Shown here piece by piece: positions 32,756 to 36,606 of a stretch of DNA of 64,000 bases. This DNA is from Pelagibacterales bacterium MED-G40 (GTDB taxonomy: Bacteria > Pseudomonadota > Alphaproteobacteria > Pelagibacterales > Pelagibacteraceae). Numbering within the stretch: position 1 is the stretch's first letter; every line of letters begins with the position of its first letter. A program made the translations under genes and the position numbers. The notes beneath the pieces were generated by a model. That model searched no databases and was not told the origin of the DNA. It worked only from the letters and a program-made list of their open reading frames with translations. The stretch is from contig NTJN01000001.1 in NCBI GenBank assembly GCA_002457515.1, positions 1-64,000 of the forward strand. Direction: 5' to 3'.

Positions 32756-33331
32756 CTACCTGGGTGCTCTTTTAGACAGAATCCTCTGCAGAGTTCTTCT
32801 ATGCATTTTTAACCTACGAGCTGTCTCTGATACGTTTCTGTTGCATAACTCAAAAACTCTGTATATGTGCTCCCATTTAACTCTGTCTGCTGACATGGGG
32901 TCTTTTGGAGGATTAGCTTTAGACTCTGGTGAAGCTAATAACGCAGCCTCAACATCGTCTGCATCCACAGGTTTAGCTATATAATCTATTGCGCCTGCTT
33001 TGACAGCTGCAACGGCTGTTGGTAAGTTGCCATATCCTGTTAACATTACAATTCGACTTGATTTTTTGACCTTAAATAGCTCCTTAACCACTTCTAGGCC
33101 GTTTCCATCCTCCAGTCTAAGATCAACGACAGCGAAATTTGGGGGTGAATTTTTGAGCAAATCTAGTGCATCTTTCTTACTCTTGGCCTCTTTTACCAAA
33201 AAACCCTTCTTTTCCATAGCTCTTGAGAGCCTTCCTCTTAATGGATCGTCATCATCGACGATTAAGAGAGACTTGTCCTCAAAATCTGAAATTTTTAGTT
33301 GTAAGGCTGTGTCTTCTGAACTTTTGGTCAT
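32756..33331 (-). CDS. regA: Redox response regulator RegA/ActR/PrrA
   Basis: The 191-residue protein (ATG at 33331) has a receiver domain with DDDDPLRGRL, phospho-accepting Asp70 (VVDLRLEDGNG) and VMLTGYG, then the very short C-terminal Fis-like helix-turn-helix of the RegA family: VKWEHIYRVFELCNRNVSETARR followed by MHRRTLQRIL and SKRAPR at the end. This tail is nearly identical in all RegA homologues. RegA controls redox-dependent energy metabolism. Its kinase RegB is 3.3 kb away, separated by a polyamine operon; in photosynthetic relatives the two are adjacent. A start 9 codons upstream (33358) is possible. Confidence 0.92.
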   Translation of the reverse strand: MTKSSEDTALQLKISDFEDKSLLIVDDDDPLRGRLSRAMEKKGFLVKEAKSKKDALDLLKNSPPNFAVVDLRLEDGNGLEVVKELFKVKKSSRIVMLTGYGNLPTAVAAVKAGAIDYIAKPVDADDVEAALLASPESKANPPKDPMSADRVKWEHIYRVFELCNRNVSETARRLKMHRRTLQRILSKRAPR

Positions 33332-33402
33332 AAAGTTTATATGGAGAACATTTTTCAAATTTCAAGCTCTAAATTCCTTTATTTTTTTCTTTACATAGAG
33401 TG

Positions 33403-33482
33403 AAAAAAACCTTAAATGCGAAAAGATAAGGTTTTTTTTAGTAAATTTTTAATGACCTTATCTGTGTAAACAAAATGAGGGG
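33403..33482 (+). promoter_or_regulatory. Ornithine decarboxylase leader: two mutually exclusive hairpins, 17-codon upstream ORF, ribosome binding site
   Basis: AAAAAAACCTTA (33403-33414) can pair with TAAGGTTTTTTT (33427-33438), a terminator-like hairpin whose 3' arm is a U-run. The same TAAGG can instead join the longer stem AGATAAGGT (33424-33432) with ACCTTATCT (33455-33463). The two cannot form together. A 17-codon frame, ATG 33416 to TAA 33467-33469 (MRKDKVFFSKFLMTLSV), spans both switches. GAGGGG (33477-33482), 8 bases before the decarboxylase ATG, is a strong ribosome site. Alphaproteobacterial ornithine decarboxylase genes are known to carry a structured leader (speF motif); whether this one belongs to it I cannot tell. 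Confidence 0.5.
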
Positions 33483-33490
33483 CACATGAG

Positions 33491-34672
33491 ATGCGAAAAT
33501 TTAGAAGCGTTAACGAGCTAGTTAATATACTTAAACCGGATTTTCCGGTTTATTGTATTCGACCGGAGTCAATAAAAACTTCAACTCAGTTTTTTAAAAA
33601 GAACTTTCCTGGAAAAGTTCTTTATGCTGTGAAAACAAATCCAAGTGAAAATGTTATTAAGATTATCATTAATAATGGAATTGAAAATTTTGATGTCGCA
33701 TCAATTAATGAGGTTAAATTAATCAGAAAAATAAATAATAAAGTAAAAGTATATTTTATGCATACTGTAAAAAGTAGAGAAAATATTAAAGAAGCTTATT
33801 TTAAATATGATGTAAAAGACTTTGCTTTAGATACTAAAGAGGAATTACTTAAGATTCTAGAGGCAACAAATAACGCTAAAGATTTAAATCTATATGTAAG
33901 AATTGCAATTTCGAATGAACATGCAGAAATAGATTTATCTAGAAAATTTGGAGCCTTACCAAGTGAGGCGCTCGGTTTGTTAAGATTGTCAAAAGAGCAT
34001 GCTAAAAAAGTAGGTCTAAGTTTTCATGTTGGATCACAATGCATGGATAAAATCTCTTTTACAAAAGGAATAAATGAAATTGGAAATATTATTAAAAAAA
34101 CAAAAATTGTTCCAGATGTAATAAATATAGGGGGAGGTTTTCCTTCTCTTTATCCAGATTTGATGCCTGAGCCTATAGAAAATTATTTATATGAAATTAA
34201 ACAAGGATTAAAAAATTTAAAACTAGAAAAGATGCCTGAGATATTCTGTGAACCTGGCCGCGCAATTGTGGCTGAAGCCGGATCTACTATAGTTAAAGTT
34301 ATATTGAAGAAAAAGCAAAAACTATACATAAACGATGGAACTTACGGTTCTTTATTTGACGCTGGTGTGCCAAATTTTGTATTGCCTTCCAAAATGATAC
34401 CAAACAACAGTAGAATAATATCAAAAAAATTGACCGCTTTTGATTTTTATGGACCAACTTGTGATAGTCTTGATTACATGAAAGGACCGTTCTTTTTGCC
34501 AAATAATATTAAAGAAGGAGATTATATTGAACTTGGGCAACTAGGTGCTTACGGGACAACATTTAGAACAAAATTTAATGGTTTTTACTCAGATGCAAAC
34601 TTTCAAGTAGGTGACAAACCTATTCTTTCGATGTACGATCGAACAGACAAGCTTGATTATCTTGTTGCATAA
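33491..34672 (+). CDS. odc: Ornithine decarboxylase (fold III, eukaryote/DAP-decarboxylase type)
   Basis: The 393-residue PLP enzyme belongs to the alanine-racemase-fold decarboxylases. The PLP lysine is Lys48 (YAVKTN), the glycine loop is INIGGGFPS (211-219), the PLP-phosphate segment CEPGRAIVAEAGS (253-265), and the C-terminal YGPTCDSLD (320-328) carries the catalytic Cys324 and Asp325 of ODC. The D-x-x-x-x-x substrate segment fits ornithine rather than diaminopimelate; the neighbouring polyamine genes support that. It makes putrescine. GAGGGG 8 bases upstream fixes the start; its leader appears structured. Confidence 0.9.
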   Translation: MRKFRSVNELVNILKPDFPVYCIRPESIKTSTQFFKKNFPGKVLYAVKTNPSENVIKIIINNGIENFDVASINEVKLIRKINNKVKVYFMHTVKSRENIKEAYFKYDVKDFALDTKEELLKILEATNNAKDLNLYVRIAISNEHAEIDLSRKFGALPSEALGLLRLSKEHAKKVGLSFHVGSQCMDKISFTKGINEIGNIIKKTKIVPDVINIGGGFPSLYPDLMPEPIENYLYEIKQGLKNLKLEKMPEIFCEPGRAIVAEAGSTIVKVILKKKQKLYINDGTYGSLFDAGVPNFVLPSKMIPNNSRIISKKLTAFDFYGPTCDSLDYMKGPFFLPNNIKEGDYIELGQLGAYGTTFRTKFNGFYSDANFQVGDKPILSMYDRTDKLDYLVA

Positions 34673-35718
34673 TGAACAAAAAAAATAGTCCCACTTTAGG
34701 GCACAATAAAAAATCACTATTAAATTCTGAAGTTGAACATATCGATATTACATCTTTTGATTCTAGAAAGATTATTGAGTCTATGAAAAAGATGTCATTT
34801 ACCTCAAGAGATACTGCGAATGCTTCTGAGATTTTTAATGAAATGATAAAAGATAAGAATTGTTCTATTTTCCTTACTATAGCTGGTTCAACCTCTGCCG
34901 CAGGATGCATGAAGTTATATTCAGATTTAGTAAAATATAACATGGTTGATGCCATTGTAGCTACAGGAGCTTCGATTATAGATATGGATTTTTTCGAAGC
35001 CTTAGGTTTTAAACACTACCAAGGAAATCAGTTCCAAGATGATAAAATTTTAAGAGAAAATTATATAGATAGAATATATGATACTTACATAGATGAGGAA
35101 CAATTGCAGATTTGTGATAAAGCTATATGTGATATCGCAAATAGTTTACCTCCTAAGGTCTATACTTCAAGAGAATTTATAAGAGAAATAGGAAAATATC
35201 TCAAAAAAAACGGAAAAAAGAAAAATTCTCTAATTGAAGTTGCTTACGATAATAATGTTCCAATATTTTGTCCAGCATTTACTGATAGTTCAGCTGGTTT
35301 TGGTTTGGTAATGCATCAAGAGCAAAATCCATCAAAACATATAACTATGGACTCTGTAAGAGAGTTTAGAGAGTTAACAGAAATAAAATTAAAATCACAA
35401 ACATCGGGATTATTAATGATAGGAGGTGGAGTCCCAAAAAATTTTGTTCAAGATACAGTTGTTTGCGCAGAACTTTTAGGAAAAAAAGTTGATATGCATA
35501 AATACGCTGTTCAAATAACTGTTGCAGATACAAGAGATGGCGCTTGTAGTAGCTCAACTTTAAAAGAGGCTAGTTCTTGGGGAAAAGTTGATACTTCAAA
35601 AGAGCAAATGGTTTTTGCAGAGGCTACAAGTGTACTTCCTTTGATAGCTAGTGATGCATACCACCGTCAATATTGGAAAAATAGAAATCGAAAAAATTTT
35701 TCAAACTTATTTGGATAA
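34672..35718 (+). CDS. Deoxyhypusine-synthase-family enzyme (probable homospermidine/spermidine-type aminobutyltransferase)
   Basis: The 348-residue protein is a deoxyhypusine synthase homologue. LTIAGSTSAAG (69-78), VATGASIIDMD, VPIFCPAFTDSSAGFGL (196-212), LMIGGGVPKNF (249-258), TVADTRDGACS and EASSWGKVD (299-307) with the catalytic Lys305 are conserved. Bacteria lack eIF5A, so the bacterial members work on free polyamines; several have been shown to make homospermidine from putrescine or spermidine in an NAD-dependent way. Its ATG overlaps the ornithine decarboxylase stop by 1 base, so it most likely uses the putrescine made there. Confidence 0.82.
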   Translation: MNKKNSPTLGHNKKSLLNSEVEHIDITSFDSRKIIESMKKMSFTSRDTANASEIFNEMIKDKNCSIFLTIAGSTSAAGCMKLYSDLVKYNMVDAIVATGASIIDMDFFEALGFKHYQGNQFQDDKILRENYIDRIYDTYIDEEQLQICDKAICDIANSLPPKVYTSREFIREIGKYLKKNGKKKNSLIEVAYDNNVPIFCPAFTDSSAGFGLVMHQEQNPSKHITMDSVREFRELTEIKLKSQTSGLLMIGGGVPKNFVQDTVVCAELLGKKVDMHKYAVQITVADTRDGACSSSTLKEASSWGKVDTSKEQMVFAEATSVLPLIASDAYHRQYWKNRNRKNFSNLFG

Positions 35719-35721
35719 AAA

Positions 35722-36606
35722 TTGATTTACCTGCCAAACAAAAAAGGTTTTTTAGGAATAGACAATAAATTTAGAATAAAAGAGAAAGCTGTAATAATAC
35801 CTTTTGGATTAGAAAAAACAGTAAGCTATGGTTCGGGAACAAAAAATGGACCAAAAGAAATAATTAAAGCATCTCATCAAGTTGAATTATTCGATGAGGA
35901 ACTAAATTGTGAACCATATAAAATTATTGGCATCAAAACAATAAAACCTTTTTCTATAAAAAAAAAGATGGATGATGCTTTAAATCAAATATCGAAAGTA
36001 AATGAATTACTATTAAAAAAAAGTTTATTTCCTTTGGTGCTTGGAGGGGAGCATTCAATTACACCTGGTTGTATAAAGCCGTTTACAAAAAAATTTTCTA
36101 ATTTATTAATTCTACATTTTGATGCTCATGCAGATTTAAGAGAAAGTTATGAAGGAAATAAATTTTCACATGCGTCTGCTATAAGAAGATGTTTGGATTT
36201 TAAAAATGTAAGTGTCATATCATTTGGAATTAGAAATATATCAAGTGGTGAAGTAAAATTCTTAAAAAAAAATAGTAAAAGAGTGAAAGTCTTTTGGGCA
36301 AAAGATAAAAAAAAATGGAATTTAAATCTTTTCAAAAAAATTATAAAAAATAAAAAAATTTATATTACTTTTGATGTCGATAGTTTAGACTTAAGTTTAA
36401 TGCCTGCAACAGGCACTCCAGAGCCAGGTGGTCTTTTTTGGGATGATGTAATAAATTTAATCAAAATTGCATCCAAATACTCGAATATTGTAGGAGCAGA
36501 TATTAATGAGCTTTCACCAATCAAAGGATTTCCAGGCTATAATTTTTTAGTAGCAAAACTGGCATACAAAATACTTTCTTATAAATTTTTAAAATCTAGA
36601 TTTTAA
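35722..36606 (+). CDS. speB: Ureohydrolase, agmatinase-like
   Basis: The 294-residue protein has all manganese ligands of arginase/agmatinase: His111 (GGEHSIT), Asp134, His136 and Asp138 (HFDAHADLR), Asp218 and Asp220 (FDVDSLDLS). The loop ATGTPEPGG is typical of agmatinases. It would release putrescine and urea from agmatine, giving a second putrescine route to the adjacent decarboxylase; no arginine decarboxylase is seen in the window. The start appears to be TTG, 3 bases after the previous stop, because no ATG lies near. The end overlaps convergent regB by 11 bases. Confidence 0.85.
   Translation: MIYLPNKKGFLGIDNKFRIKEKAVIIPFGLEKTVSYGSGTKNGPKEIIKASHQVELFDEELNCEPYKIIGIKTIKPFSIKKKMDDALNQISKVNELLLKKSLFPLVLGGEHSITPGCIKPFTKKFSNLLILHFDAHADLRESYEGNKFSHASAIRRCLDFKNVSVISFGIRNISSGEVKFLKKNSKRVKVFWAKDKKKWNLNLFKKIIKNKKIYITFDVDSLDLSLMPATGTPEPGGLFWDDVINLIKIASKYSNIVGADINELSPIKGFPGYNFLVAKLAYKILSYKFLKSRF

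Follow-up and report, generated by a model that had tools for sequence, protein, structure and literature searches.

A structured leader with overlapping start codons precedes an ornithine decarboxylase-like gene in SAR11 bacteria

The odc locus and its relatives

The window analysed here, a stretch of 64,000 nt, belongs to a genome of SAR11, a group of bacteria abundant in the ocean, whose closest named match is Pelagibacteraceae bacterium AG-426-L23, with 95% identity in the odc protein. Positions 33491–34672 of the forward (+) strand, on which the leader features and the operon genes described below lie, encode an odc-like type III PLP decarboxylase of 393 amino acids according to profile matches; NCBIfam lysA-type models match the product below their cut-offs, and we infer its substrate when we call it an ornithine decarboxylase. 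The next gene in the operon is deoxyhypusine-synthase-like (34672–35718), matching the NCBIfam 1,9-bis(guanidino)-5-aza-nonane synthase model with 572.6 bits (cut-off 500), and an agmatinase-like gene lies at 35722–36606 (NCBIfam agmatinase, 197.6 bits, cut-off 174.3), while a divergent gene for an ActR/PrrA/RegA response regulator is located upstream of odc.

Leaders of related odc genes were gathered by genome homology searches, contig searches and from stretches of Pelagibacter-type genomes, giving 45 A1, 19 A2, 61 Pelagibacter and 8 deeper leaders after 9 duplicates had been dropped. The close leaders, A1, are the loci coded g1 (the window's genus code) together with L031 and L069, added by likeness; the next clade, A2, comprises L105–L111, coded g147, with L032–L047 and L071 added by likeness; and the Pelagibacter set, for which the genus name is our label, holds the g144-coded L140–L179 with L048–L068 and L070, again by likeness. 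Besides the duplicates, the counts leave out L132, L138 and L139, in which the start is missing, and L072–L075, three of which are non-SAR11 and one of which has no start. The window's own odc is closest to the g147-type genes (82–88% identity), with most genes of its own code g1 at 79% or less, and the odc tree places it among the A2 genes, an odd grouping that may reflect transfer or a mixed assembly.

Promoter and transcription start

The likely odc promoter carries a conserved −35-like box, TTTACA, at 33390–33395. TTTACA or TTGACA is present in 44 of 45 A1 and 18 of 19 A2 leaders, the remaining two being read by our script as an overlapping TTTACT, and one of these three hexamers lies 78–113 nt upstream of the odc start in every SAR11 leader counted. 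A weak −10-like box, TTAAAT (33412–33417), follows 16 nt past the −35-like box; most relatives share only three or four of its six letters with TATAAT, and a generic sigma-70 promoter scan found no site. From the position of the promoter box we infer that odc transcription starts at about 33424. In many Pelagibacter-type odc promoters (L048–L068) the −35-like box is, by eye, preceded by TTCAATAG and followed by CTATTGAA or CTATTCAA, elements that are possibly an operator.

A conserved helix at the 5′ end of the leader

The first helix of the leader, P1, pairs a 5′ arm at 33424–33433 (AGAUAAGGUU), placed by the covariance alignment and the fold, with a 3′ arm at 33454–33463 (GACCUUAUCU) across a U-rich loop at 33434–33453 (UUUUUUAGUAAAUUUUUAAU), in which U runs surround a short A-rich stretch that by eye is mostly kept in A1 and A2. 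Among 60 distinct leaders, eight of the nine modelled P1 pairs have changed on both sides and 95.3% of cells are paired. A second helix, P2, follows directly, its 5′ arm UGUGU (33463–33467) sharing base 33463 with P1 and its 3′ arm GCACA (33482–33486) having as its last base the A that opens the first AUG; 99.3% of its cells are paired and, being nearly invariant, it gains no support from covariation. Taken as a whole, the structure has 97.1% of its cells paired and a covariation of 0.269, and although the 60-row alignment was fitted to the structure and thereby favours pairing, the values fell far lower when partners were slid by one to three columns (28.5–58.3% paired in the 60 distinct rows) or when the alignment was shuffled (covariation 0.148 ± 0.007). 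RNA started at 33424 folds with P1 as its first helix, and as a whole it is little or not below shuffled sequences in energy (z −1.74 and −0.75). Plain MAFFT alignments misplace P1. Judged by these compensatory changes, P1 is a conserved RNA helix, which bears out an earlier sequence-only reading in so far as it had placed a structured leader before the odc-like gene.

A covariance model built from seven leaders matched all 65 A1 and A2 loci, including 58 that had not gone into it, with E ≤ 3.5e-6. In 41 genomes searched with stricter filters it gave 21 strong matches (E ≤ 1.4e-8) and one at E 0.26, and the 21 strong matches coincide with odc starts found by homology search. Matches in Pelagibacter and deep SAR11 loci were weak, occurring in 34 of 37 with a best E of 2.6e-4. 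Leaders coded g144 (L140, L143, L154, L170 and others) have other 5′ hairpins, for example UUGCAUA..UAUGCAG followed by U8, and Pelagibacter-type leaders have in common a stretch of U-run, G/A-UUAAAU and U-run directly 5′ of the Shine-Dalgarno sequence.

A covarying stem with a largely kept loop, a Shine-Dalgarno sequence framed by P2 and a position before a polyamine operon are what would be expected of a ligand-binding riboswitch for a polyamine or ornithine, in which P1 and the U-rich loop would form the aptamer and P2 the expression platform. However, P1–P2 is small, its loop is of low complexity and the leaders differ strongly among SAR11 clades, and we regard a riboswitch of this kind as quite improbable.

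The upstream hairpin and the 17-codon ORF

The sequence-only reading had described two mutually exclusive hairpins, in which TAAGG (33427–33431) pairs either with CCTTA at 33410–33414 or with CCTTA at 33456–33460, and a 17-codon ORF (33416–33469) overlapping both. These letters and coordinates are exact, and the second stem (33424–33433 with 33454–33463), which is P1, is kept with compensatory changes. The first, terminator-like hairpin (33401–33440, pairing 33401–33414 with 33427–33440) fared differently. It is present in the minimum-energy structure of 33395–33500, in which the downstream CCTTAT pairs with the Shine-Dalgarno sequence and not with TAAGG; this segment folds at −21.8 kcal/mol, compared with −12.8 ± 2.6 for 200 shuffles, none of which was as low (z −3.5). 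Counting the hairpin as stable where its duplex reaches −6 kcal/mol or lower, it is stable in 35 of 45 A1 leaders but in no more than 2 of the 19 from A2, having been lost in relatives that still have the second stem. Because its 5′ arm runs from just past the TTTACA box into the −10-like box, that arm is probably not transcribed, and we judge the hairpin to be mostly promoter DNA. Given its distribution between A1 and A2, the first hairpin is not what selection keeps overall, though it may have a role within A1, where it is common. The pairing of the P1 3′ arm (CCUUAU) with the Shine-Dalgarno sequence was also considered and discounted, as by eye it is weaker in A2, where the arm is GCUU.

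The 17-codon ORF takes its ATG from within the weak −10-like box; this ATG is missing from 46 of 64 leaders, being present in 16 of 45 A1 and 2 of 19 A2 (18 of 64 in all), and the ORF has 17 codons in just two of the 64. Thus the alignment of SAR11 leaders upholds the pairs of the second stem but not the start of this ORF, which on these counts we judge to be no more than a chance ORF.

These observations bear on transcription attenuation, in which 33401–33440 would act as terminator and P1 as antiterminator, the choice between them depending on whether the 17-codon ORF is translated. Such a mechanism would explain the strong hairpin followed by a U run, the TAAGG strand common to both folds, and the place of the first hairpin in the minimum-energy fold and its stability in most of A1. 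Against it stand the near absence of a stable first hairpin from A2, the unconserved ORF start and the conserved TTTACA box, which puts an arm of the first hairpin in the promoter. In addition, A1 leaders such as L011, L015 and L117 have changed the shared strand and the P1 3′ arm together, leaving the upstream arm mismatched with a duplex of −4.2 to −4.7 kcal/mol. With neither a conserved pair of terminator and antiterminator nor a leader ORF conserved across the switch in these 64 leaders, we give attenuation little credence.

One Shine-Dalgarno sequence before two overlapping starts

The general idea of the sequence-only reading that a short upstream ORF may affect odc expression retains its force, but the conserved ORF is another one, at 33486–33521. 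The Shine-Dalgarno sequence GAGGGG (33477–33482), in the loop and edge of P2, precedes two start codons in the arrangement ATG-AG-ATG (33486 and 33491; ATG-NN-ATG in general), the first of which (AUG1), 5 nt before the odc start (AUG2), opens an overlapping uORF of 11 codons plus TAG encoding MRCENLEALTS. The spacing is conserved in A1, the Shine-Dalgarno tetramer lying 10 nt upstream of the main start, which puts it 5 nt from the upstream ATG, in 41 of the 43 A1 leaders that have the upstream ATG. An ATG at −5 occurs in 43 of 45 A1, 11 of 19 A2 and 7 of 61 Pelagibacter leaders (it is missing from 8 and 54 of the latter two groups), and in the deep branches in all five g146, g5 and g148 leaders and none of three from g145. 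Where it is present, the uORF has 11 codons in 43 of 43 A1 and 10 of 11 A2 leaders (one codon in the other A2 leader), 12 codons in all seven Pelagibacter leaders and 18 codons in all five g146, g5 and g148 leaders. Among the 51 ORFs of at least 150 aa in the window, two, including odc, have an ATG at −5, and the 11-codon frame is found once, at odc itself.

The stop of the uORF is made by the codon for Leu10 of odc, which is TTA or CTA in all 42 A1 leaders that have both AUG1 and Leu at this position, and it is the sole one of 21 conserved leucine positions in A1 with 100% TTA/CTA. Compared with Leu14, the codon bias gives a Fisher p of 0.001, uncorrected for relatedness; on the tree, AUG1 changes 10 times, and a paired test of AUG1 against the Leu10 codon gave a median p of 1 with too few independent pairs. 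The conservation of the stop may be due to a coding-region hairpin that contains it (P3, below). The peptide of A1 and A2 is mostly M[KR][CW][EK]NL..LT[NS], in which the reading frame alone limits residue 3 to C or W, and it is not conserved between lineages.

Hairpins within the odc coding region

P3 (33509–33526) spans odc codons 7–12 as GUUAAC-GAGCUA-GUUAAU, its loop and 3′ arm containing the uORF stop. In 44 A1 sequences 99% of P3 cells are paired, whereas 300 synonymous redraws gave no more than 86%, and in A2 95% are paired compared with a redraw maximum of 89%; Pelagibacter leaders show another register, at codons 6–14, with 83% paired compared with a maximum of 61% and an eighth pair that fails. 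A possible further hairpin, P4 (33545–33566; codons 19–26), would pair CCGGU (33545–33549) with ACCGG (33562–33566) in the window, where it is seen from sequence only, differs in register from both the A1 and the A2 forms, and competes with AAACCGG (33534–33540) paired to CCGGUUU (33545–33551), which is preferred in the fold. All P4 pairs form in 26 of 44 A1 sequences (at most 1 in 300 synonymous redraws) and, in another register, in 17 of 19 A2 sequences (at most 4 in 300 redraws), while in Pelagibacter the A1 and A2 registers pair 36% and 62% of cells, with null maxima of 49% and 62%, so that neither is evident there. The P3 and P4 registers were picked by eye from the same sequences before the redraws, which favours them in these comparisons. 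RNAalifold applied to the plain MAFFT alignments recovered P2 and P3 in A1, P2 to P4 in A2 and no helix at all in Pelagibacter. A strong hairpin at 33532–33552 (odc codons 14–21, with an AAACCGG/CCGGUUU core), which our scan calls terminator-like, is partly shared with L006 only, among the leaders listed.

Excess codon identity within the first 330 codons is highest at codons 3–11 in A1 (3.10, mean 0.56, sd 0.51); A2 has a weak maximum of 2.32 beginning at codon 6, the next being 2.15 at codon 191. Rare codon use peaks at codons 19–27 in A1 and 18–26 in A2, and 31 of 45 A1 leaders have CGG as codon 24, compared with two of 396 Arg codons in codons 30–330 of A1 genes with the upstream ATG. On these codon statistics, hairpins in the first 25 codons of the relatives' odc are maintained by unusual synonymous codons.

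The expense in rare codons also weighs on a simpler view, in which the region would be a constitutive initiation module, with a 5′ stem for mRNA stability, a U-rich loop as a site for ribosomal protein S1 and a framed Shine-Dalgarno sequence, unregulated and with AUG1 as noise. By eye, Pelagibacter leaders without AUG1 also have stems and U-rich stretches, and these, like the 10 changes of AUG1 on the tree, would fit such a module, but the retention of AUG1 in 43 of 45 A1 leaders, the codon bias at Leu10 and the coding-region hairpins paid for in rare codons do not, nor does the odc1 motif, which has the same start layout and in which mutations altered output according to PMC8632094. We consider an unregulated module unlikely, if still worth bearing in mind.

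Comparison with odc1 and other known systems

As described in PMC8632094, odc1 (uORF-25-1) is a motif of alphaproteobacterial odc leaders with overlapping starts of the form UUG-NN-UUG, an 11-residue uORF that does not vary in length, a Shine-Dalgarno sequence in a hairpin, and a pseudoknot; in an E. coli reporter, both starts were functional and the uORF start was about three times better. We found odc1 beside a named Sphingomonas odc, with a deoxyhypusine-synthase gene next, and in other sphingomonad leaders. Of 30 further loci, 14 carry the odc1 layout, one of them coinciding with L084, and 16 lack it. The distinct leaders found by the pattern GGRGGTCCCTTGNNTTG have a first frame of 11 codons in every case (14 of 14), the peptides differing; L207, having been chosen by the 11-codon rule, is excluded from this count.

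The SAR11 leader resembles odc1 in its position upstream of an odc-like gene, with a deoxyhypusine-synthase gene next (in one named odc1 record), in start codons 2 nt apart (43 of 45 A1), in a Shine-Dalgarno sequence within a hairpin adjoining the starts, and in an 11-residue first frame, which is found in A1 but not in Pelagibacter (12) or the deep branches (18). By contrast, odc1 uses UUG starts (AUG in L207), whereas SAR11 uses AUG; the P1 of odc1 is long, GC-rich and pairs the Shine-Dalgarno sequence, with a published pseudoknot, whereas the SAR11 P1 is A+U-rich and lies upstream; and the Shine-Dalgarno sequence sits mainly in the P2 loop of SAR11, touching the P2 3′ arm, the ribosome site of odc1 being placed in the right shoulder of its P1. 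The peptides are by eye also unlike those of odc1, which in sphingomonads are, for example, LNCTSIIARWG and LNCSSIPTPRL.

An odc1 model made from 15 sphingomonad leaders, containing P1 without the pseudoknot and, with sphingomonads as its sole source, maybe narrower than the published motif, gave no match at E ≤ 10 in 37 SAR11 loci and nothing in the window's genome; in the remaining 50 loci its hits were two sites that had served to build it and a third at E 3.3, and it matched 3 of 190 genomes of the class under stricter filters, one of them weakly (E 0.0085). Conversely, the SAR11 model gave no match at E ≤ 5 in 51 loci from outside SAR11. Membership of odc1 was rejected, as neither model crosses over, and by comparison of the layouts the logic of the SAR11 leader is like that of odc1. 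Two leaders from outside SAR11 carry the AUG form of the layout: a non-SAR11 alphaproteobacterial leader (L184:285–320, G116) has ATGAGATG, with ATG-AG-ATG, an 11-codon uORF encoding MRCPTCHGFGL and, judged by eye, a neighbouring hairpin in which the Shine-Dalgarno sequence is paired, and the sphingomonad odc1 leader L207:1381–1449 (G512) has ATG-AG-ATG replacing UUG-NN-UUG.

The speF leader RNA precedes ornithine decarboxylase genes in alphaproteobacteria, and the 34-codon speFL ORF stands apart upstream of its gene, whereas the 11 codons of SAR11 overlap the main start and encode a peptide that is not conserved between lineages. A link to speF had been suggested by the sequence-only reading. 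Yet no Rfam family reached its gathering score anywhere in the window, the 15 Rfam matches up to E 10 in 33150–33700 do not include speF, and speF membership was rejected, with RF00518 below its gathering score in the window and unmatched in the window's genome; among 142 class genomes, RF00518 matched four at E ≤ 0.001, three of them over the cut-off. Likewise, no Rfam family was found at cut-off in the odc1 loci L193, L195 and L207 or in seven other loci. In E. coli, according to PMC7815308, speFL is a short ORF in the ornithine decarboxylase 5′ UTR, in which ornithine stalls ribosomes just before the stop. The spermidine riboswitch, described in PMC10853860 as a close variant of a SAM aptamer, is another polyamine-related leader, whereas the window holds no Rfam family at cut-off.

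Within the open-licence PMC papers, the odc1 motif is named in a single one, PMC8632094, and the passages retrieved on Pelagibacter or SAR11 contain no report of an odc leader. A term search of the main text of the P. ubique RNA survey (PMC2704228) turned up neither ornithine, decarboxylase nor speF, and term searches of two later surveys (PMC6429828 and PMC11109978) turned up neither ornithine, polyamine nor decarboxylase.

Discussion

Taking these observations together, we consider it on balance probable that SAR11 has here a structured initiation region, with a single ribosome site used both by a decoy start and by that of odc. Comparison of the leaders shows that the P1 and P3 folds are conserved, that P4 is a fold of the relatives, that P2 is near-invariant, and that AUG1, its spacing and the 11-codon frame are conserved in A1. 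In the structured initiation region that we propose, the odc mRNA would start at about 33424 with hairpin P1 and its U-rich loop, and P2 would frame the Shine-Dalgarno sequence and end on the first of the overlapping AUG-AG-AUG starts, with further hairpins in codons 7–12 (P3) and at about codons 19–26 (P4). AUG1, 5 nt from the Shine-Dalgarno tetramer, would open an 11-codon out-of-frame peptide ending inside P3, whereas AUG2, 10 nt from the tetramer, would open odc, so that initiation at AUG1 would act as a decoy at the cost of odc initiation, and the folds would set how often each AUG is used. In this proposal AUG1 would be translated and the choice of start regulated, with ornithine or a polyamine as the putative signal.

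More tentatively, and with less confidence than in the shared ribosome site itself, we suggest that the leader and the first 25 odc codons may form a SAR11-specific RNA class whose folding picks the start according to the polyamine or ornithine level, the 11-codon decoy start either having arisen apart from odc1 or being a shared remnant. If the polyamine operon is indeed under conserved RNA control, this would add a regulatory circuit in SAR11, and an overlapping-start layout held in common with odc1, without a match between the models, would suggest that start-codon choice is a recurring way of controlling odc.
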